Notes under the pieces: generated by a model
Told to the model about the DNA's origin: nothing
What the model saw: the letters and a program-made list of their open reading frames with translations, nothing else
Database searches by the model: none
In this document: one piece after another, positions 10,532-57,385 of the stretch
Numbering within the stretch: position 1 is the stretch's first letter
Layout: every line of letters begins with the position of its first letter
NCBI GenBank assembly: GCA_963575745.1
Contig: CAUYUJ010021148.1
Coordinates: 243,148 to 307,147 of the forward strand
DNA from: Prorocentrum cordatum
Taxonomy: Eukaryota > Sar > Dinophyceae > Prorocentrales > Prorocentraceae
Direction of reading: 5' to 3'
Length of the DNA: 64,000 nt
Translations under genes and position numbers: made by a program

Positions 10532-10715
10532 GGTATGAGCACACAATGCCTCGGAGCTCCGCGCGGATGCCTCAGATCGGCGCCTGGATTCCCTGGCGGC
10601 GCCTCTGGCGTCGCCCCTGGCGCGCTCCGCGCGCCAGGGAAGGGGGGCCCAGCGCCGATCCGAGAAATCCGCGCGGGCCTCCGAGAACTTCTGCTTATAC
10701 TCTGTTTTGTCCTTC
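10532..10715 (+). mobile_element. FB1 foldback element, copy B
   Basis: The left arm CTCGGAGCTCCGCGCGGAT is inverted at the right as ATCCGCGCGGGCCTCCGAG. The core GATCGGCGCC faces GGCGCCGATCCGAG-type sequence, with CTGGCGCGCTCCGCGCGCCAG in the centre. Orientation is that of the majority of copies. Confidence 0.85.
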
Positions 10716-12182: not shown

Positions 12183-12352
12183 GCACATGCAGAGTTTCTC
12201 GAAGGTCCGCGCGGCGCTCTTGGGTCGGCGCTCGGGCCCCCCTGGCGGCGCCTCTGGCGTCGCCCCTGGCGCGCTCCGCGCGCCGGGGAGGGGGGCCCAG
12301 CGCCGATCCGAGAAATCCGCGAGGACCTCCGAGAATCTATGTGCTTCCCAAA
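12183..12352 (+). mobile_element. FB1 foldback element, copy C
   Basis: GGTCGGCGCTCGGGCCCCCC on the left and GCCCAGCGCCGATCCGAGAA on the right. Core CTGGCGCGCTCCGCGCGCC. The right arm ends in GGACCTCCGAGAA. Confidence 0.82.
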
Positions 12353-15879: not shown

Positions 15880-16944
15880 TTGCGAGCTGGTACCCTTCGC
15901 CCAGCGCGCAGTGTCCAAGCTCAGCTTATGTTTATATGCGCTCCCTCAGAAGAAGCTGAGCCTTGGACACAGCAGCTGCTAGACTATGCTTTCTCTCTGC
16001 CGTATGCCCTGGCTTCTGCAGCAGCGCAAGCGACCAAGGTTCGCGCCATCGTTGTCTTTCGAGTTGCCCAGAAAGCCAAGCAAACAGGGTGGCGCGAGAA
16101 GGTGCGTCGGCACAGCCGTGGTGGCGCTGCTGCCCTCTTCGCTGTCACCAAGCCCGCCACGCCGTGGCACTCCAGCAAGTTTAACGCTGCAAGGGCGCCG
16201 TGCGCAGTTCAGGAGGAGGTGGAGACTCTCACTCGTGGGTGGTCGGACGGGTGGAATGTTGGACATGCCTCGGGCAGCATTCCGTGGCCGTCGTATCTCG
16301 GACCTCACTTTGAGCGACCGTCGCTCGAAGCCTTCAAGAGAACCATGCACAGTTTTCCCAAACGCCCAGGATGTGGTTTTGATCAGATTTGCCCTCGGCG
16401 ACTTCTTGGGTGTTCGAACCCCGCCGTGGTATCCTTGCTCGCCCTGCTGGTCGATGTTGAAATTTCCTGCGACTGGCCGCGTATCTGGACCGAGGTGGTG
16501 TTTATTTCCAAGCGCGCCGGTGGCCTTCGGCCCACTACGTGCAGGCACATTCTTGTGCACATTCGAGGACGACTGCGCAAAGGGCTTGTTGCCCAGTGGC
16601 AAGCGCGCACTCCTCGTCCCTATTGGTGGTCCACGGCAGGCAAATCCAGCGACGTATTGGTCTGGTTGCAGTTTGCCCCTGCCGAGCGGGGTCGAGTCAA
16701 AGGCTTTTATAGTGCCCTCGCTTTGCTTGACTTGCAGAAGGCTTTCGAGTGTATTCAGCACTCTGAGCTTTTAGCCGTCGCCGTCTTGACTGGGTTTCCG
16801 ACTCGTCAGTTGAAGCTCTTGGTCGAGCTTCATCGGCGCCCAGGGTCCTGGCGCTTAACGATGCAGTGTCGTGCCCCCGTTCTACCTTGCAAGCTGTGCT
16901 GCCAGGTTGTCACTCCGCCGCGCTCATGTTGCAGCTCGTTTTAG
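15880..16944 (+). pseudogene. LINE-type reverse transcriptase, N-terminal part (element L1)
   Basis: Open for 354 codons. The first 130 residues are the linker seen before RT in dinoflagellate LINEs (REKVRRHSRGGAAALFAVTK). RT motifs follow: GCGFDQICPRRLL (GxDxxxP-type), WPRIWTEVVFISKRAGGLRP (K-x-G-x-RP), then LLDLQKAFECIQHSELL containing the first catalytic Asp, and GFPTRQLKLLVELH. The frame is lost near 16880 and RT continues in the frame starting 16866. The role would be target-primed reverse transcription. The element is 5'-truncated and dead. The first ATG is arbitrary. Confidence 0.8.
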
Positions 16945-23079: not shown

Positions 23080-23280
23080 AGAATGGGGGAAGGAAGAATG
23101 ATATAAACATAACAACTCGGAGATCCTCGCGGATTTCTCGGATCGGCGCTGGGCCCCTGGTGCGCGGAGCGCGCCAGGGGCGGCGCTGGAGGCGCCGCCA
23201 GGGGGGTCGAGCGCGGATCCGAGACATCCGCGCGGACCTCCGAGTTGTTATTTTTATGTCATGCTTCGTTCCCCTAGAGA
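23080..23280 (-). mobile_element. FB1 foldback element, copy E (best preserved)
   Basis: Arms of about 73 bp. The left is GGGGGAAGGAAGAATGATAT ... ATAACAACTCGGAG ... TTTCTCGGATCGGCGCT. The right is its inverse, GATCCGAGACATCCGCGCGG, CTCCGAGTTGTTATTTTTA, GCTTCGTTCCCC. The inner asymmetric core is in the same orientation as copies A and I. About 200 bp, defining the full FB1 length. Confidence 0.88.
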
Positions 23281-32848: not shown

Positions 32849-33054
32849 GAAGCGGAGGAGGAGGAGGAGGAGGAGGAGGAGGAGAAGGAGGATGAGGAGG
32901 GGGAGGGGGAGGAGGGGGAGGGGGAGGGGGAGGGGGAAGGAGGCGACAGCGTGGGAGACGGGGGAGGAAAAGTGACAGGAGGAGGAGGAGGAGCTGGCAG
33001 AGGAGGAGGAGGAGCTGGCAGAGGAGGAGGAGGAGTAGGAGGAGGAGGAGGAGG
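32849..33054. repeat. (GGA)n tract, 5' flank of L2
   Basis: GGA/GGGGGA with two copies of GGAGCTGGCAGAGGAGG just before the spliced leader. The same repeat resumes at 39192 after L2. Confidence 0.92.
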
Positions 33055-33076
33055 TCCGTAGCCATTTTGGCTCAAG
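33055..33076 (+). other. Dinoflagellate spliced-leader (DinoSL) sequence, exact
   Basis: T followed by CCGTAGCCATTTTGGCTC and AAG, identical to the published 22-nt consensus (first base U, A or G). It is followed by CCAT rather than a GT donor, so it is not an SL RNA gene. It is a leader copied into the genome from a trans-spliced transcript. Confidence 0.96.
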
Positions 33077-33091
33077 CCATTTTGGCTCAAG
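33077..33091 (+). other. Relict spliced leader (15 nt)
   Basis: CCATTTTGGCTCAAG directly after the full leader. This is what remains when the AG inside an older genomic leader (CCGTAG) is used as the acceptor for new trans-splicing. It records at least one earlier retroposition cycle. Confidence 0.95.
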
Positions 33092-33268
33092 TAACCATTT
33101 TCTCGAGGTGTTTTTTAGAGACCAAGCCTTTCGGGCCCCCCAGTCGGCTGCCCAGCCAGGGGCCCCTTCCATTTCTTTTCCTCTCGGCTGGCCAAGCCAG
33201 CACGAGAGAGCAGCATCAGACACGATACCGCACATCGTGACACACCTTTTGCCTCACCATACTGGGCC

Positions 33269-34462
33269 ATGGGCAAACAGGGGACAAATGGAGCCCCACG
33301 TGACTTTTCTTGGGAGTGCAGTGAGTGCAAAGCCAGTACCAGTCGTAATCTCAATTGGTGCTGGCGCTGTGGTTCCCATTGGACGAAGACGGCTACGGGT
33401 TGGTCGCATCCACACGGAGGCGCAGGCGGCAGCCCCCGAGGGAACGGACTACAACGCGCAGACAAAGGTGATGGCAAACAAAAGGGCAAGAAGGGCAAAG
33501 GCAAAAAAGGAGGACAGGCACAAACAGAAGGTCGTGATGCGCGTGATGTTTCTCCTGGCAGGGATGACTCTAATTCCGTGGCTTCAAATCCCTTCAAACT
33601 TGGTGTATCTGACGAACTCAGCGCCATGGACCTTTCTAGCCCAGACAAGGAGAAGAAGCACAACGTTGGGAACATTGGACATCAGATCCAAGTACTCCAG
33701 CATGCCTATGACACGCTCGCCAAAGGGGATGACGGAGCTGAAGGAGAGGCAGCCAAGGCCCGTCAACGCAAACTCCAAGCACCCCGAGAAGAGCGAGACA
33801 ATGCAAAGCCCGCCAGCCACTGACTCCTCGTGGCCAGCGGAAACATGTCCAAGTTCGAGAAACAGGTCGAGAGCCACACCAAGACGGTGGGCATGCTTGA
33901 AGTCAAAGTCCAGAATGCAGCAGCACACCTACGTGAGCAAGAACGGGAGCTGGAGATCGCGAAGCAGAGCCTGGCAAAGGCCAAGCGGAAGCTTCAGGAG
34001 GTCAACACGGATATGGTTGTACACAAAGCGGTTGTGGCGGCCGCGAGTGAATCGGGAAGTCGGCCTTCCTCTCCCAAGCCCTCGCCCAAGCAGATCTTCG
34101 CGCTCACTCCCGACGAACTGCAAGCTGTCCTCGCCACGCGGGCGGCATATATTTCTGGTTATGACGAGAGCCAAATTAACAATGCCATGCAGTTATTGGG
34201 ACCACTTTTCGGTCCACTTCCATCAGACGCAGCAGATGTACCCGTCCCAGCAGAGCCACCAGCAGCTGATGCTCAAGGTGCAGACGCAGGACAGGGTGAT
34301 GCCAGAGGTAGTGCAGGAGATCGAGCTGGCCGTGCCCGCTCTGAGGCATCCTGCAGCCCCCACAGGAAGCCCCTTGCTAAGGCCCAGGCTACGAAGCCAG
34401 GCCCCAAGGGTGATGCGTCCAGGGGAGATGGCAGCCGTTTGCCTGCCAAGAAGGATGGGTAG
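33269..34462 (+). pseudogene. L2 ORF1: RanBP2-type zinc finger and coiled-coil protein
   Basis: One frame (397 sense codons) interrupted only by TGA at 33821-33823. Residues 15-34 read WECSECKASTSRNLNWCWRC, an exact W-x-C-x2-C-x10-C-x2-C RanBP2-type zinc finger, a fold known to bind single-stranded RNA or ubiquitin. A Gly/Lys-rich basic stretch (KGKKGKGKKGG) follows, then an acidic/Ser region. After the stop comes a heptad-rich coiled coil near 33850-34020 (KVQNAAAHLREQEREL), and an Ala/Pro-rich tail rich in Lys/Arg. LINE ORF1 proteins are RNA-binding chaperones that often combine coiled coil and zinc motifs, so this is the likely role. The start ATG at 33269 is the first in frame after the leader. 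It ends 35 nt inside ORF2. Confidence 0.75.
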
Positions 34463-35399
34463 CCCATCCACCAGTTGGGCCCACCATGAGACTCCCCCCA
34501 CCTGTCGGCCTCCCGACCCTCCTCACCCAGTCTCAGGTGGCCCCGCTTTTCACATTTGCACTGTCAATTCCTCAGGCTGGACCAGGGCCCTGGACCACCT
34601 GAAACAGTCTCACGCCCATATTGTCGTAGTCCAGGAGCATGAGCTCAGCCAGGACAAGATAGGCGCTGCCAGCATCACCGCGTTGAAGTTCGGTTGGGGG
34701 AGTTGCTGGGCCCCCGCCCTGACTACCGCCAAGGGGCACCAGTCGGGAGGCGCTGCCATTCTGCACGGAAGTTACTTTGATTTGCGGCAAGAAACGGGAC
34801 GAGGGATCGTGGCCCCAGGGAGGATCCTCCACGCGTTTTGCCGCATTCAGAGCTTGGGCGTCTTCTCGATTTTCGCCAACTACTGGATCTCAGGAGCTGG
34901 CTTGTGGAAGCGTAATCTTGATTTCTGTCAACGGCTGGGAGAGCATGTTCTTACCCGAGGGCTACCGTTCGTGGCCGGTGGAGATTGCAACATGACGCCT
35001 GGCGAGATTAGCATTGGTTGCGAGCCAGGGCGCTTTGGAGGAGAGGCAATCTTCGACCCGAGCGCCCACGCCTGTTCTATTGAAGACTCGCACCGTACTA
35101 TTGATTTCTTCATACTCAGCAAGATACTTGTCAAAGCTTTTCTCGCCATCAAGGCTGATCTTTTTGGTGATGTTTTCCCGCGCAAGCCAGTGGATTTGCA
35201 TTTAACGGTGGAGGCATATTTTTTACAGGTGGAACGTCTTGAGGCGCGCCAGAAGCTTCCAGTCCAGCTCCCAGTTGGACCAGTGCTACCCCCACCTTCC
35301 TATCAGGACCTCCAAGATAAAATTGCTGCTGCTGCGCCCTTCTCCAAAGGGAACAGGCACCGTGCCCCCGCCCGCTTGGAGAAAGCTGAGCTCGAATGA
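34428..35399 (+). pseudogene. L2 ORF2, EEP (AP-endonuclease-like) domain
   Basis: From the ATG at 34428, which overlaps the end of ORF1. After a Pro-rich lead come the EEP motifs: TVNSSGWTRALDHLKQ, HIVVVQEHELSQD (the xxxQE box with the metal-binding Glu), ARG-like strands, FVAGGDCNMTP at 34978-34998 (GDxN box), SHRTIDFFILSK near 35087-35120 (SxIDY-type box) and PVDLHLTVEA. This domain nicks the target in LINE integration. The frame meets a TGA at 35397, but similar sequence (LNQVYSEWCSQAWAELKQAF) continues in frame to a C-run at about 35468. The same frame is open upstream through all of ORF1 (from 33108), which I treat as a shadow. Confidence 0.8.
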
Positions 35400-36923
35400 A
35401 CCCTCAACCAGGTGTACTCGGAGTGGTGCTCCCAGGCCTGGGCAGAGCTCAAGCAGGCTTTTCATGACCCCCCCCCCCCCCACGTCGGGCAGAGGGGGGC
35501 CTTCCCTACGAAGTTAGCCAGGTCGGCCTTATGACCCTTTTGATCACCAAGGACAGCCCCCGGAGATCCGAGGCCCGTTGCGTCGGATGGCTGGGGCGAA
35601 CATTAACCGAGCTTCGGCCCCTCCTTGCGAGTGCTGAGAGAAGGCGCACGTTGGGCACGCACCTCCCTCCTCATTCGGCACACCAGAGGAATTCGCAAGA
35701 AAGGAAGCCCTTTCTCCATATTTTGGCATCAGGGCAGAGAGTTTGCGCACATCATTTGTACGAATGCCCTTGGCCCGATCTGGGGCGCCCACTGTCGGAG
35801 CTGGGAACCCATTGCCTCGCCAAATAACGCACGCAGCTGAGGAAGGATTGGATTAAGCGGTGTGAAGAAGCTCTTGCTGGAGGTGCCTCTTCGGGCCCAC
35901 CAGTTTACCAAGCTCGCCAGTGAGTTTAAAGAAGATCTTGTTAAAGATCATGAGGGCAACCCCACCGCCTCCTTTTCCAACCGTTTCAGCCACCAGATGA
36001 GCATCTGGAAAGAGGCGCGGGAAGCGAGCCAGACTAGCCCTTCGATCATAGACGAGGAAGAAGATTTGGACATTCCCCCAGGGCCCGATGTTGAAGAGAT
36101 AAGGGGCCTGTCGAGGAGTTTCAAAACGGCGACCATCGCCATTGGCGGATTTCACCCCCGCCATGTTGCCCTCATTGGGGACGAAGGACTCAGGGTCCTG
36201 TCGGGGATGTTTACCTGTATGAACATCCCCGGCAAGAGTCCTGAGGGACTCCGACAGCTCATCGTTGCTCTCTACAGGAAGCCACATGAAGGCAGACGGC
36301 CCATAGGATTCTACCAGTCCACCACCAGATTTTACTCCAAGGGCCTGGCCAACGACTGCAGGAGATGGGAGTCTCGCTGCGCGGCCAGCCCAGTCTTCAA
36401 TATGGCGCCGCACAGGTCGACCACGGACGCAGTTTGGCGCCAGGCTGTTCGAAATGACCTCCGTCACAATGAAGGCAAAGTTGTTTTGGCCTTGCTTGCG
36501 GACCTCAAACAGTGCCATGAACATATGAGGCACAATTTGCTCTGGAGTGAATCTAAGGACTGTTGTTTTCCCCTTCACGTTGTTCGTTTTACTATCAACA
36601 GCTATCGCTGGCCTCGTCGCTCACTGATGGACTCGGCTCTGAGTGAGGAGATAGAACCCACGCGCGGCATCGCGGCAGGCTCCTCCACGGCCACGTATGA
36701 AATCAAAGCCGACATGCCCCCCTCGACCCGAGACATCAAGTTAGGAGAAGACGAGGACCTCACCATTCACATTGATGATATCTCCACGTCGGTGGCCATG
36801 CCGACGGCCACGAGCTGTTTGAATTCGTTGGCCACCCTGGTGGGCCTAGTCTTCGACCAGCTCACCAACAGGTTGGAGCTGCCGGTTGCTTTAAAGAATG
36901 CAGTTCGCGACGAACTCCAGTGA
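35400..36923 (+). pseudogene. L2 ORF2, linker and reverse transcriptase
   Basis: The linker is scattered over frames: a C-homopolymer near 35468-35480 shifts the frame, TLTELRPLLASAERR lies in frame 2, TAA at 35825, and RKDWIKRCEEALAGGA at about 35843 precedes the RT frame. The RT frame from 35862 is open to 36923. GGFHPRHVALIGDEGLRVL and KPHEGRRPIGFYQSTTRF are the fingers motifs. LLADLKQCHEHMRHNLLW has the first catalytic Asp (codon 36501). GIAAGSSTATYEIKAD is the AGxxxA box. LTIHIDDISTS carries HIDD at 36768-36779, so all three catalytic Asp are kept. RLELPVALK starts the GLxLxxxK box before a frameshift at about 36890. Confidence 0.85.
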
Positions 36924-37706
36924 AGTGGCCAAGCTGGCGCCCGCCGCGCTAGGAGCTTACGGTCATACTGTTGCTGGGCATGTTGCCAATGTAGGAGTTG
37001 ATTTTTCCGCGGGGGAATCCAGGTGCTCCAAGGGTGCCCGATCCAGAAAAAAGTCGCGGTGGAACAAAGGCCTACGTAGGCTGATCCTGGTGCAGAAACT
37101 CAGAGGGGCCACGGTCAAGAAAGGTAAGATTCTTGTCTGCGGAATCAAGCCCAGCCTCACCTACGGGGAGGAGGTCCAAGGGCACTCCCCCGCTGAGCTC
37201 AGAGCCCTGCGCCTCCAGACGGCCAAAAGTGTCGGACTCTGGGGAGAGGGGCTAATCTTGATTTGTGCTGGAGCTTGGTCCCCAGCAGAGATCCGATGTC
37301 TCACGCTGGAGCCTCGCTCCGCAGGTATTGTGCCGAGTGGTGGTCTGCCACGGACCCGCTGCTCTGTGCTAAAGATAACCTCATGGCGCGAGATCTCAGG
37401 GAAGCCTTCAACCTGGCCAAGGAACGATTTGACGCCCACCCCCCTCCAAAACGATGGCATCAAGTCACCCAGCGCCCCCTTTCGGACATGCTTTTATTGG
37501 TGCACGCAGGCTGGTTGGGAGCTTGTGGACCCCGCCTGCGTTCGCACGCCAGGTGGAACCGTCTGCAACGTTACCCTTGCCCCGCCAGCCCAGATTTTTG
37601 ACCTCTTAGGCAGGGGCCTACAGAGGCAAGCTCTCCACGGGACCGTCTGCACCAAGCCGCAGGACGTGGGCTCCGACCGCGCTGCGCAGATTCGCGAGCG
37701 CGGGCT
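36898..37706 (+). pseudogene. L2 ORF2, post-RT connector
   Basis: Frame 1 resumes the RT thumb: QFATNSSEVAKLAPAALG, then NVGVDFSAG (LGxDF-type) and a basic run (KGARSRKKSRWNKGLRRL), then GIKPSLTYGEEV (the GxxPxxxYG motif common after LINE RT). Near 37240 it shifts to frame 3 (LRRYCAEWWSATDPLL, RWHQVTQRPLSDML), and near 37480 back to frame 1 (TLAPPAQIFDLLGRGLQRQ). All pieces align in order with a single LINE polyprotein, with three or more indels. Confidence 0.7.
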
Positions 37707-38626
37707 ATGGGCCCACCCTGTCTCGCGAGCCTGGAGCTCATCAAAGCACACGCCTGCTGCAAAGCAGATCCTTCGTCAAATGTTCACAGGATGCGATGCC
37801 AGGTTTCCCCGAAATGCCAACATTGCGGAGCCCCCGGCACTCCATTCCATCGAGTCTGGAGCTGCCCTTTCGGGGGTTCTCTGCGCCAAGACTTGGGCGC
37901 GGAGCTCGTTGAAGCTGCGTTGGAGGCTGGCCCCGCGGACCCGCTTTTCAACTGCCCGTGGTTCCCCGCGCCCATTATCGAGAACCCCCCCCCCCCCCGA
38001 CACCGAGGTCGTTGAGCACCTGGAACGAGGGGGCCCCATCGACCAGTTTGTTTGGGACACCCCAGGGGTGGAAGTGTCTATTGATGGGTCCGTGGTTCAT
38101 CCCACCACCACCCTCCTCAGCAGAGGAGGTTGGTGCGCTGTCGAAGTCACCCCACATGGGGGCCTCCGCAGGGCCGTCCGAGGCGCCCTCCCCTCCTACG
38201 CCCCCACGTAACGCCAACGCGTCAGAGCGCCATGGTCTGCTCCATGGGACGGCGCATTTCCATATCGACCATGATGCTGAGCCAGCCCGTGTCATTCAAG
38301 ATTGCGCAGCTGTTGTGCATGGCGCAGATACCCCTCTCCGCTCGAGAGACGGCAGAAAGCAGCTGGCTGGACACTCGCGCCATGTGTATATGAACACTGG
38401 GATGCGAGGCTGGACTATACCCAAGATTCGTGCTCACCAGTCCCTTCTGCGTGGTGACAGGGGGGTGGAAGAGCAAACGAGGGTCCTGGGCAACCACTGG
38501 GCCGACGTTCTCGCCAAAGAGATTGCCACCAATCAGTTGAACCCTCAAGATGTGGAGCGTGTCGAGGCAGGTTATAAGCTGAGGCTTGACGCGTACCAGG
38601 CTTTCGTTTTAATGCTCGAGCCCTAA
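37707..38626 (+). pseudogene. L2 ORF2, zinc knuckle and RNase H
   Basis: CQHCGAPGTPFHRVWSCP (Cx2Cx7Hx4C) near 37808-37870 is a zinc knuckle of the kind placed between RT and RNase H. Frame 1 gives VEVSIDGSVVHPTTT at 38068-38112 (the DGS strand). Frame 2 continues HIDHDAEPARVIQDCAAVV and RGVEEQTRVLGNHWADVLAK at 38461-38520, the GNxxADxxAK signature. RNase H would remove the RNA strand during second-strand synthesis. A TAA ends the frame at 38624-38626 but recognisable sequence continues. The same order in L1 supports a common lineage. Confidence 0.78.
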
Positions 38627-39094
38627 GGTAAGTCTAGGGATGTGTTCGGAGACCTCCAGAAGATCCCCAGGGCTCCAAAAGTTTCCACGAGAGGGCCCAC
38701 CCGTCATCGTTTCAAGTGGACCCTCAACAGATGGCAGCGTGTTGACTGTGGGAGGGCGACAGCCAACCCGCTCTCGCACCGCCGCGGATCCTGCACCCCG
38801 CTGCCATATTCCTTGCAAGCTGTCCTCAACCAAGCAGCCCCGCTGGAGCCCGCCCACGACTTGTGGGCAGGACGCCTGGAGGCCGCTGGCACGGCAGTCC
38901 TGTTCTGCAATCGTTGTGGGTCGTACTCCAATGGTCGCGCGAACCATCTGTTGTGTCCGTGTACGACCCACAAGATTGCCAAGCTCAGAATGCTTCGCAG
39001 TTGCAAGCTTCCATATCCTAAAGGGGTTCGGTTCTCGAAGCCGTGGCGTGTCCCGACAGGGCTGTTAGCCCTGCGCCCGCCTTTCGGGCTCTGA
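38627..39094 (+). pseudogene. L2 ORF2, C-terminal Cys motif domain
   Basis: Same frame as RNase H after the TAA. THRHRFKWTLNRWQRVDCGR-like sequence, then LEAAGTAVLFCNRCGSYS near 38878-38930 and HLLCPC. Cx2C followed by a C-x-C pattern suggests a terminal metal-binding motif. Ends at the TGA at 39092-39094. Function unknown. Confidence 0.6.
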
Positions 39095-39191
39095 GCCGTT
39101 CGCCCTGACACAATTCCTTTTCACCCCTTTTGGGATTGCGGAATTCGTTCTTTGAATGGATTGCCGTTTCACCTGCCTTGTATGTATGTAG

Positions 39192-39545
39192 GAGGAGGAG
39201 GAGGAAGAGGAGGAGGAGGAGGAGGAGGAGGAGGAGGGGAGGAGGAAGGGGAGGGGGAGGGGGGGGGGGAGGAGAGGGAGGTGGGGGGGGAGAAGGATGA
39301 GAAGGAGGGGAGGATGGCAGGAGGATTTGGAGGAAAAGGGCGAGGAGGGAGGAGCACAGGGGAGGAGGAGGAGGAGGAGGAGGAGGAGGAGAAAACGGAG
39401 GAGGAGAAAATGGAGGAGGAGAAAATGGAGGAGGAGGAGGAGGAGGAGGAGGAGGAGGACAAGGAGGTCGAGGAGGAGTTGGTTGGAGGAGTTTGGAGGA
39501 GGAGGAGGATGAGCAGGTGGAGGAGTAGGAGGGGGAGGAGGAGGG
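39192..39545. repeat. (GGA)n tract, 3' flank of L2
   Basis: GGA/GGGA with GAGGAGAAAATGGAGGAGGA repeats. Taken with 32849-33054 it appears to be one microsatellite split by L2. Confidence 0.92.
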
Positions 39546-39759
39546 GGAGGATGAGAAGGGCGAAGATCAGGCCTCTCGAGGAGTCCTCCCTCCCCCGCCG
39601 CCTGTGCGCGCAGGATCGGGTCCCTCCGGCGCGCCACCCCAGGAGCCCCCACCGCCCGCAGGGGTGCGGCCAGAGAGCCGCGGGTGCCCGCTCTCGGCAG
39701 GGGTGGGGCGCCTTCCGTGCTGCGTGTGCACCCACCCCAAATTCCCCCTGGACTTATGA

Positions 39760-51136: not shown

Positions 51137-51158
51137 TCCGTAGCCATGTTGGCTCAAG
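51137..51158 (+). other. Dinoflagellate spliced-leader sequence, one mismatch
   Basis: T, CCGTAGCCATGTTGGCTC, AAG: the DinoSL with T to G at the second T of the TTTT run. TTCCG follows, not a GT donor, so it is not an SL RNA gene. No relict copy follows. Confidence 0.88.
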
Positions 51159-51357
51159 TTCCGAACCTGCCATAGGGGTTTGGAAGTTTCTACATCTGAC
51201 GGGGAGTCTCGAAGGCCTCCGCGCCCTGCAGCAATTGTGTCGCTCGATCCCCGTGGGAGCTTCAGGGGCCGTCGGTCCCGTTTTCCCGTTCCCTCGCCAC
51301 ATGTGCGCGCGACCCTTCTTCCTCGCATCACGCCAGCGAGCCTGGCTCGTTACAGCA

Positions 51358-51586
51358 TGGCGCCCCAAGAAGAGAGCCCGATCCGACGAGGATCAAGATG
51401 AGCTTCTGTCGGGCATCGGCCAGGTGCTTTCCGAGATGGAGCAGGTTAGCTCCAGACAGGGCAGCGTCGGGTCGCAGGTCGCCCCCTCGCCGAGATGACG
51501 GAGACCTCTGGGTCCACTGGAAGAACAACAACAATTCGTCCTCCTCCTCCTCCTTCTCCTCCCACCTTCCTCTTTGTTCCTCTTCC

Positions 51587-51617
<31 letters not shown>

Positions 51618-52173
51618 CTTCGCGTAACAGTGCGTCTACTGGGCTCCCCTTGCTTGTCGGCCACGGCGCAACTTCGTGGCCGTGCCTTGGAACGGCCACA
51701 CTTCATTTGCATGTGTCAATACTGCCGCCCGCACAGGTCAGAGGAGCAACCAAGTTTCTGCCAAGTGTCCCCCCACCCATGACAAAGCTGTGCCCTGGAA
51801 GCCCACGTGCAGGAGGGGGCCTGATTTACCTGTGCCAGGAGGCGGTAGGTCTGCGGGCGTGGGGCTCTTTTTCGCAGTTGACACCTCGGGCGGCACTGAT
51901 ACTTTTGCGCGTCCCAAGTTCGGGACTTTCCCGATATCCAGACCTATGCCATCGTCGCAATTTCTGAACCCCAACCTCGAGCCCGCCCTCTCCACTGCAG
52001 CCGAGAAGTCCGCGCTCAGGCAGGTGCGCGCACACATCGATCCCGCCGCGGAGGCTCGCTTGTTTTTGCGCGGCGCTGACGGCCAGCGCGCACCCACCCG
52101 CGGCCTCGGCAAGTTCGCCAGCAGCGTCGCTGGGGATCTGGGGAAAGTGGCCCAGCCGATGCCTCCTCGCTGA
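51358..52173 (+). pseudogene. L3 ORF1-like region
   Basis: The ATG at 51358 starts MAPQEES in one frame, while the neighbouring frame reads KKRARSDEDQDELLSGIGQ. One extra C in CCCC at 51363-51368 separates them, and the joined start would carry a PKKRAR-type nuclear signal. Acidic and Gln/Ser-rich sequence follows (LSEMEQVSSRQGSVGSQ), then DLWVHWKNNNN in another frame, a (TTC)n run at 51590-51622, and a Cys-rich patch, CMCQYCRPHRSEEQPSFCQ, near 51710-51770. From 51676 another frame is open to 52173 (SALRQVRAHIDPAAEARLFL). Probably a nucleic-acid-binding ORF1, but no family is certain. Confidence 0.45.
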
Positions 52174-52689
52174 CGAGTCGTGGACGAAGGGGGGGGGGTC
52201 AGTCTGCGGGGCGTCTGGGCAGGATCTCTGCCCGCATGTGTTGGGGGGCCCTAAGGACCCTGAAGAGCCGAACTCTCTGGTGCTGCGCGGTGTCCTGGAC
52301 CCGGGGCCCCCTCCCGATCGCGCCCCTCCTGCCTCGGCACTCTCGGTATTCCAGAGGTCCGATGGCCCCCGGACGCTGCCCCGGGCATCGAGGCTTTCGG
52401 GTTCTCCGCTGCGGTCGGCGCCGTCTGGCTGGAGGCGGGCGGTTCCAATCCGGATCCAGCCGTTGCTCCTGCAGAGAGCAGGGGCCTTCTTCGCGCGGCC
52501 GCCGCTCGGCATCTCGGGCGGCTCGAGCGCGGGCAGGCCACCGACGAGCAAGACCTACATCGGCACCTCGGCCCCCTTTCGATCCAGCACATCCGACGGC
52601 AGCTCGACGAGCTCGAACGAAGCGACGCTCCCCCCAACGATGGGTTGAAACGCAGGTGCGGTTAGTATCGTAACACGCACCTCGGGTTC

Positions 52690-53560
52690 GGCCAGGCGTT
52701 CCGCCATCCTTAAAGGCGCAGTTGACCCCGCTGGCCATCGGCTCTCAGACCCCGACGAGGTTTCAAAGAGGTTGGCTTCGCTCCAGGACACGGCGCGCAG
52801 CGGGGGATGTTCTTGCGACAAGGCGCGTGAGAACATCGCGCCTTTCGTGCAGCCCTGCCCACCTCGCGCGCTCTGGAAGCTCGAGTTCGGAGCCTTCGCC
52901 GAGCTTGTTCGGCGTCGTCGGGGCAGCGCCCCTGGCCTTGACGGGGCCCTGTCTTTTTTTTTCTCGAGGGCTCGCCCTGGGGATCGTGGTCTGGAAGTTC
53001 TGGTTGCCATCTACGAGGTGGTCCTCGACGGCACGTTCCCTGCGACACCTTTGACTTTGCCATGCGCGTCTTCCTCGCGAAGCGCACCTCCGCCTCCGAC
53101 TGCTCTGAGGGCGCTTCCTGGCTCCCTGCTTCGACTCGGTCGACGTCGCCGTCGAGCGCCGAGAGCAAGATCGCCAGCCCTTGGGGGCCCCAGGAAGGGT
53201 GGGTTCCAGCTCCAGAGGGGGGCCATGCAGGGGCGCCCAAAATCTGGAAACGCCCGAGCCCTGGCACTTGACCCAATGATTCTGCATGTTTCATCCTGCA
53301 GCCCTCGGCATCCAGTTGCCGTCGCCGCCTTTGCCGACGACGTCGGCCTCGGCGCTTTTGATCTCCACCAGGCGCTGCGCTCGTTGCTGCCGGCGTGGAG
53401 CGTCGTCGGCTGGGCCCGTGCTCAAACCGTCGTAGTTGTAGTGACCGCTCTGCCCAGGAACGAGGTCCTTTCTTACCTCGGGATCCTCTTGGGCCTGGCA
53501 GGGAGGGCGGCGGCGCGGCGCGAGGTTGCCTTACATATCTCGGGCGCGATCAGGTTTTGA
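52690..53560 (+). pseudogene. L3 reverse transcriptase with internal deletion
   Basis: The frame from 52772 reads RALWKLEFGAFAELVRRRRG, SAPGLDGALSFFF (GxDG-type fingers motif) and EVLVAIYEVVLDGTFPATPL. It then loses similarity. A neighbouring frame (FAMRVFLAKRTSASDCSEGA) continues the family for a short way, and the first catalytic-Asp block is missing. Sequence resumes in frame with GFQLQRGAMQGRPKSGNARA (QGxPxSG box), LALDPMI and VAAFADDVGLGAFDLHQALR, whose FADD is at 53330-53341, then EVLSYLGILLG. LALDP and ADD spacing fit LINE RTs. The deletion and frameshifts make it inactive. Confidence 0.72.
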
Positions 53561-54233
53561 AGCGTGTGAACGTCGGAGCCGCGTGCGTGCAATACTTTCT
53601 GTCGCAGTGCCTTGGGCCGCGTCGCCCAGTGTTATTCCTCCACTTCCGAAGCATATCGTCTTGAACGGGAATCCCTCCAGACCCTCGTCCTGGCGCCCAG
53701 GGGCGCTCTCTCGCGCAATCGTTCGAAGTCGCCAAGGACTTTGGCTTGCCCGCGCAGGCGAGGTCTCGTGCGTGCATGGCCCAGGCGGCGCAGTGCAGAC
53801 GTGCTTCCTATGCAACGGCATTCCGCGAGGCCTGCGAATATTTCGACGAGCCGGCGACAGCGACGTAGCCTTGGCCACGCACGTCCGGGGACAACGGTGA
53901 CAAAAGAGTTGTATCGCTCAAATGGTTCGTAGCTATCGAGCTCTGAATGCCCCACGATAGATCTCTGCAGGCTCGCTGTAACATTTCTACAGACGAGCTC
54001 GACAGGCGACGCAGGTATTCAATATCGGGCTGGCCCTTGCCCAAGTTGCTCTGGCCATCTCGCATCCCCGTCGGTCGAGTTGCCTTGCTCCCTGGTTCCT
54101 CACGATCGCGGCCCTTGTAGGGGTCACCAACAGTTGGTGCGCCACTCGCCGTTTTCGGGAACGCGCTAAGAGGCACCGATGGCGCCAATTCGTGGCGGCA
54201 GGAGATGACATCCCGCACCACTGTTATGTCTGC
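53561..54233 (+). pseudogene. L3 post-RT C-terminal remnant
   Basis: RVRAILSVAVPWAASPSVIP at 53584-53645 resembles the post-RT segment of dinoflagellate LINEs. RRRFRERAKRHRWRQFVAAG then DDIPHHCYVCP just before the TGA at 54231 is the basic/Trp tail. The middle is spread over frames. Assigned mainly by position after the RT. Confidence 0.5.
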
Positions 54234-57195: not shown

Positions 57196-57385
57196 AAGAA
57201 GAAAAGCACCATACACATAATCTTTTGGTGTTCCGCGCCGATGGCTTGGATCCGCGCTGGGGCCCCCCTGGCGGCGCCTCCGGCGTCGCCCCTGGCGCGC
57301 TCCGCGCGCCAGGGAAGGGTCCAGCGCGGATCCAAGAAATCCGTGCGGAGCGCCAAAACTTGATGTGTATGCCGTTTTCTCTTCC
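57196..57385 (+). mobile_element. FB1 foldback element, copy K
   Basis: ACACATAATCTTTTGGTG and TTGGATCCGCGCTGGGGCCC at left, GTCCAGCGCGGATCCAAGAA and AACTTGATGTGTATGCCG at right. Related words GGAGGATGTTTGGGGTGCTT and GGAGGATGTCTGGGCTGCTT lie on the two flanks. Confidence 0.84.

Follow-up and report, generated by a model that had tools for sequence, protein, structure and literature searches.

LINE copying starts at the 3' end, and how an intact 5' end persists is an old question. A locus in the dinoflagellate Prorocentrum cordatum raises this question in an unusually concrete form. At one place in a stretch of 64,000 nucleotides (assembly GCA_963575745.1, contig CAUYUJ010021148.1, positions 243,148 to 307,147 of the forward strand), the whole of which we analysed and refer to as the window, a LINE begins with a spliced leader (DinoSL) followed by a relict leader. 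Does the leader belong to the element and, if it does, is it inherited as DNA or remade by the host? A first-pass annotation proposed that the LINE's RNA is trans-spliced, then reverse-transcribed as far as its 5' end and reinserted, that the genomic leader is the acceptor for the next round, and that every cycle adds a new leader and replaces any lost 5' end. As judged from sequence, this mechanism is partly supported: it fits in its core, and it fails in its bookkeeping of one leader per cycle.

The features of the window that enter into the argument are these:

32850 to 33054, + strand: tract rich in (GGA)n, the 5' flank and presumed target, from the sequence and from the prevalence of such tracts in family copies
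33055 to 33076, + strand: complete 22-nt DinoSL, first base T, the 5' edge of the element, with the boundary taken from the target-site duplication of sister copy L017
33077 to 33091, + strand: 15-nt relict leader CCATTTTGGCTCAAG, from the sequence
33095 to 33107, + strand: CCATTTTCTCGAG at the start of the body, possibly a third, decayed leader (weak; local score 8)
33269 to 34462, + strand: ORF1, with a CxxC..CxxC zinc motif near its start and one in-frame TGA at 33821-33823, from the translation
34491 to 35399, + strand: endonuclease-like region of ORF2, with motifs QEHEL, GGDCN and RTIDFF seen by eye in the translation
35841 to 36920, + strand: reverse transcriptase (RT) region, from matches to RVT_1 and to a EukProt protein
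36895 to 38208, + strand: continuation of ORF2 in another frame; the Pyramimonas protein P0002 runs across the frame change
39179 to 39190, + strand: 3' terminus TGTATGTATGTA, not poly(A), with the same type of end in sister copies
39191 to 39550, + strand: tract rich in (GGA)n, the 3' flank
51137 to 51158, + strand: second leader of the window, with one mismatch, after cctcctcct

The complete leader, TCCGTAGCCATTTTGGCTCAAG, is present without a mismatch and the exact relict lies directly 3' of it, a combination whose chance expectation is 0.00 in 100 dinucleotide shuffles. The annotation was thus exact about the full leader and relict at the element's edge, and its placement of ORF1 within about 200 nt also holds, since the start codon at 33269 lies 178 nt past the end of the relict. 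The element occupies 33055-39190 (6.1 kb), and both of its junctions are seen, within (GGA)n.

Its coding capacity is that of a non-LTR (LINE) retrotransposon, as judged by its reverse transcriptase: the RT region matches a Pyramimonas EukProt protein that carries PF00078 at E 1.1e-64, and it matches RVT_1 itself at E 4.7e-5 and 23.6 bits, below the curated cut-off of 29.6. LINE proteins from other loci align across both the RT and the endonuclease-like region, for which the Pfam search of the window copy gave no match. The zinc motif of ORF1 has sub-threshold Pfam zinc-ribbon matches only (E about 0.09); an RNase H-like stretch at the end of 36895-38208 was seen by eye only, and a Pfam search of the ORF2 continuation returned no RNase H match. 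The window copy is dead, because ORF1 has an in-frame stop and ORF2 is split over frames. We also considered, and ruled out, a retrogene derived from a cellular mRNA: the element encodes its own RT, and its end TGTATGTATGTA is not of the poly(A) type.

For the RT (35841-36920) the searches found just two protein relatives, both EukProt sequences from the green alga Pyramimonas sp., at 50% and 40% identity; they may reflect contamination, horizontal transfer or a family of old shared descent. The only named protein match comes from P. cordatum, a LINE protein at 30% identity. With the C-terminal part as query, no protein relatives were found, and in IMG/VR there were none for the query spanning the ORF1 and endonuclease frames, for the RT query or for the 36-nt leader pair.

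The annotation had called for a count of leaders over the genomic copies of the element. We therefore searched the source assembly (4,128,499,153 bases in 21,875 contigs) with two family probes. A leader-free probe of 409 nt from the body found 25 places, and a 26-nt body pattern with at most 3 mismatches found 20 (reversed control, 9), of which 16 were known and 4 new. Together these give 29 loci with the family 5' body; with L016 excluded, since it is cut by a contig end, 28 are informative. One leader heads 13 of them, two leaders head 14, and a single copy (L086) has no recognisable leader. Most copies thus start with a leader, and 27 of the 28 informative loci carry leaders or relicts at the 5' junction, as does a DinoSL-tagged retrocopy. 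The two-leader class includes copies with decayed leaders (L010, L019, L022, L028 and L087), and the one-leader class includes L011 and the shortened L033. The joint between leader and body is identical across the family, barring L011 and small indels. The annotation would have been contradicted by leaderless copies that continue upstream into conserved sequence: L086 is one copy in which no leader is recognisable, and on inspection of the family loci nothing but a GGA/TCC tract was seen to be conserved on the upstream side of the leader.

In L011 the leader joins the body 25 nt further in. We dropped this copy as proof of a new acceptor, as a deletion between the near-repeats GGCTCAAG and GGCTCCAG fits equally well.

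None of the 28 informative loci of this family has three clear leaders. At the body start of the window copy, the local score of CCATTTTCTCGAG is 8, against a control mean of 4.25, and 0.7% of 594 windows reach 8; most of the other copies compared score only 5-6 at this site. Over 45 leader sites, the mean score for a third, decayed leader at the body start is 5.1 versus 4.1 (Wilcoxon p 0.0009), and 18% of the sites have an empirical p of at most 0.05. Such a third leader is thus suggested in the window copy and weakly, if at all, in most others, and the excess is small. Among the same 45 sites, other families contain leader arrays of three (L043) and four (L059).

The position of the leader within the insert is given by a sister copy. 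At L017/L093 (contig C1681), the 14-nt sequence GGCGCCGGAGGAGG abuts TCCGTAG on its 5' side and is repeated directly after the 3' terminus. This is a target-site duplication, the one clear case read in the family, and together with the lack of terminal repeats it agrees with a non-LTR retrotransposon; in the window any such duplication is hidden by the GGA flanks. Because the duplication abuts TCCGTAG, the T of the 22-nt leader is the first inserted base.

At the other end of the element, eight 3' ends were fetched and five were readable; all five, like the window copy, end in a TATG-type terminus, beyond which lies GGA-type sequence. With a 3' probe we obtained 42 matches, and among the best 19 of these, compared with the 5'-body places, 13 have a known 5' end and 6 do not. 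For each of the latter six we fetched three probes of 201 bases. Element sequence is absent at all three in C13551, at the two nearer the 5' end in C5891 and C11523, and at the one nearest the 5' end in C1520; C21610 extends at least to element position 1,521, and C10865 has no element at its 3'-most probe, its other two probes reading N. The family therefore combines a constant 3' end with four copies that lack 5'-ward sequence, which can be truncations or rearrangements. In the one such joint that was read, at element position 4,585 in C5891, the element follows directly on GGA-type sequence and no leader stands between them. The claim that a lost 5' end is replaced thus finds no backing here: copies lacking the 5' end exist, the joint that was read had not been re-headed, and L011 is explicable by deletion. 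A leader-like stretch occurs beside a GGA tract at about bases 33-58 of L126 (- strand), 3 kb from a truncated copy of the family.

What do these elements insert into? The 40 nt before the leader contain a GGA/TCC tract in 23 of 27 family copies (21 GGA, 2 TCC), compared with a background of 4-5% (53 of 1,280 positions in the window, 73 of 1,480 in the fetched loci). Among the 20 first-listed genomic leaders, 16 have such a tract before them, as do 19 of 30 leader-plus-relict sites; the two sets overlap by four sites. In 20 copies of a second LINE family, described below, TCC precedes the leader in 16 and neither GGA nor TCC in 4; the two families differ in the strand of the tract, since GGA predominates in one and TCC in the other. 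The 3' flanks of L090 and L096, which are different insertion sites, appear similar by eye past the GGA tract, and some target tracts may for that reason be part of a dispersed repeat.

The leader is not confined to one family of LINEs. The genome contains 14,218 exact 21-nt leaders and 1,202 exact leader-plus-relict pairs, with none of either in the reversed controls. As a sample we took the first 20 leaders in listed order, all on contigs C1 and C2, and 14 of these precede RT or endonuclease sequence. In seven, tblastn places a window-like RT within about 4.7 kb of the leader; six more have Pfam matches to RT or endonuclease (L078 to endonuclease only, under the cut-off); and L077 matches the RT of L072. 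The tblastn queries were drawn partly from leader-headed loci, and the Pfam step is independent of these. The remaining six (L065, L067, L071, L075, L079 and L083), which have no RT or endonuclease match by tblastn or Pfam, may be genes, decayed LINEs or something else. As a background we used 13 window tiles of 4.6 kb, which gave matches in w32201 and w36801 (the window LINE) and in w13801 (a LINE at about 16 kb); the tile holding the window's second leader had no tblastn match. RT-like motifs, APGLDG (52928) and FADD (53330), lie 3' of that second leader, and window positions 51137-53600 are probably, by these motifs, a LINE from another group that has decayed. When scanned for strict RT motifs, only this element showed the motif pair and none of the 20 loci did; the scan has missed RTs, however, and it is no negative evidence because it missed the seven loci that are positive by tblastn.

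Two other observations concern the window. The LINE at about 16 kb has RT sequence at 16042-16755 (+) with no leader nearby; this LINE may be 5'-truncated, because its match is limited to the C-terminal part of the L082 protein. An interspersed repeat of about 130 bp has many copies on both strands, for example at 3-165, 10550-10687, 12198-12335, 23103-23244 and 57211-57349.

Several LINE families with unrelated body starts carry the same leader. In the second family, the sequence GGATACCGCTAGTCCGCGGC lies just inside the 5' end and occurs at 2,225 exact places (control, 0); at 1,708 of these an exact TTTTGGCTCAAG stands 10-40 nt upstream (control, 0). We fetched 20 of the roughly 517 places without this exact leader end, and 17 of the 20 show the relict part in the right place with 0-3 mismatches. 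In the other three, what is left of the leader is too short or too altered to be counted by itself: five mismatches in the relict part at both L098 and L107, a match that has no significance in isolation, and no more than CCGTAGCC at L103. Copies of this family (L001, L007, L035 and others) have a variable stretch after the leader, often folding into a hairpin, and then the near-invariant GGATACCGCTAGTCCGCGGC with a small stem. A covarying hairpin was rejected, as the consensus fold of 30 sequences kept the invariant stem only. A search of 10 loci against Rfam (E up to 1) yielded 14 matches, all below the gathering score, and no 5' ribozyme.

We consider it probable that this non-LTR element replicates through an mRNA that is trans-spliced to the spliced leader, and that the leader, remade by the host at each retroposition, is the true 5' end of the element. 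The host would splice DinoSL onto the RNA at an acceptor that coincides with the LINE's 5' end or lies close to it. The RT would prime at a nick in a GGA/TCC tract and copy the trans-spliced RNA through to its 5' end, and a full-length insertion would hence begin with a complete leader. The genomic leader would in turn supply acceptors for the next round: use of its internal GTAG would yield a leader plus a relict, and its closing CAAG, which also ends in AG, could reset the copy to a single leader. The leaders at 27 of 28 loci, the duplication abutting the leader in L017 and the leaderless joint in C5891 form the pattern that the annotation's trans-spliced RNA, copied to its 5' end and inserted, would predict, and its proposal that a genomic leader acts as acceptor fits a relict that begins right after the leader's GTAG.

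It is important, however, to weigh this reading against others. The LINE's RNA may be trans-spliced like any dinoflagellate mRNA, so that the genomic leader is a passive tag while transcription and the choice of acceptor are set elsewhere. The same tags are present on genes that arose by retroposition of mRNA (PMC6050394 and PMC3229502), about 30% of the long reads from Hydra transposable elements bear a leader (PMC12220107), and any need of the LINE for its leader is something we infer from sequence. The cut of the relict right after GTAG in two-leader copies, however, suggests that the genomic leader sometimes is the acceptor. We regard the passive tag as a real possibility, and lean against it.

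Alternatively, ancestral LINEs might have acquired the leader in one or a few events, so that it is now encoded in DNA, inherited and kept by selection, for instance as an initiator, a binding site or a signal for translation; its first base would then be the start of transcription. Its near-universal presence at one joint in the family's 5' ends is what inheritance would produce. In order to separate inheritance from renewal, we used a tree of 20 family copies built from the body minus its first 30 nt. Leader number changes 7 times on this tree; shuffled labels average 6.8 changes, and 72% of shuffles have 7 or fewer. L025 (one leader) and L027 (two leaders), for example, are 98.6% alike. The inner branches total 1.17 substitutions per site, from which about 25 substitutions would be expected in an unconstrained 21-nt leader, and none is common to two or more of the 20 rows (L010, too decayed, was left out of this count). 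Leader number thus shows no sign of following descent, and the pattern favours renewal; strong selection would also fit, as it too would keep a leader unchanged over deeply split subfamilies. Beyond the tree, C8A is common to L017 and L087, and G15A to L028 and L031, pairs that may reflect chance or inheritance. Against inheritance, too, several LINE families with unrelated body starts share one leader, and it is identical to the one spliced onto the host's own mRNAs (DinoSL, PMC6050394). We judge the inherited leader improbable. That the LINE merely landed next to an unrelated leader-tagged retrocopy, for which the 14,218 exact leaders of the genome would speak, is refuted by a joint that recurs at 27 of 28 loci with differing flanks and by the L017 duplication, which places the leader within the insert.

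We return, therefore, to a leader remade by the host. The annotation's addition of a leader in every cycle does not survive the counts: the number of leaders does not simply grow, because one- and two-leader copies interchange on the tree and none has three. Slippage on the 15-nt repeat could also change leader number without splicing. L086, in which no leader is recognisable, and the two paired changes may count against renewal. We infer from sequence the trans-splicing of LINE RNA, the use of genomic leaders as acceptors, the reset at CAAG, host read-through transcription and the lack of an own promoter. A fuller account built on these would have the LINEs give 5'-end formation over to the host: with no promoter of their own, they would insert in GGA/TCC tracts of transcribed DNA and be trans-spliced out of long host transcripts at their own leader acceptors, CAAG holding the count, GTAG adding one, and the 5' end renewing itself. 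We put this account forward tentatively, as somewhat more likely to be wrong than right.

Microsatellite-targeting LINEs insert into simple repeats, and the 5' ribozymes of R2-type LINEs set the 5' end of the RNA; the window LINE differs from these in its GGA/TCC target and in a 5' end that would come from host trans-splicing. Slamovits and Keeling are said to have described, in 2008, DinoSL-tagged retrogenes and the recycling of cDNA. The window LINE resembles such retrogenes in having a leader at the 5' edge of the retrocopy and a 15-nt relict cut after the genomic leader's AG, but here the LINE itself is the retrocopied RNA, the joint recurs throughout a family, and a TATG-type terminus takes the place of poly(A) at the 3' end. 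The recycling of cDNA from leader-tagged genes is known (PMC6050394, PMC3229502 and PMC12014239). As in Hydra, transcripts of transposable elements would be given the host's spliced leader; there the leader is seen in RNA, whereas the accessible text of PMC12220107 describes no leaders at the genomic 5' ends of elements. SymbioLINE-Dnmt and other dinoflagellate LINEs likewise have an endonuclease and RT, and the term 'spliced leader' is absent from the main text of PMC5890265. The trypanosomatid elements L1Tc/ingi, with their Pr77 5' hallmark, are also LINEs in hosts with spliced-leader trans-splicing and polycistronic transcription; they are reported, however, to carry a 5' ribozyme and a promoter of their own, from which unspliced transcripts arise. 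Leaders near endogenous copies of viral RdRp have been read as signs of retroposition (PMC10235124), and Polarella has relic leaders on transcripts and an enrichment of RT domains among single-exon genes (PMC7245778). In the accessible parts of the open-licence literature we found no description of LINEs whose 5' edge in the genome is a leader, including those of PMC11453091, PMC5890265, PMC7789003, PMC8045281 and PMC3942190.

A 5' end made by the host would be a new kind of answer to how LINEs maintain their 5' ends. As a mark of complete reverse transcription, the leader lends itself to counting in thousands of copies across the genome. Genomic DinoSL serves to call retrogenes in dinoflagellates. 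Since 14 of the 20 first-listed leaders precede RT or endonuclease sequence, retrogene counts based on genomic leaders would, in this genome, largely count LINEs.
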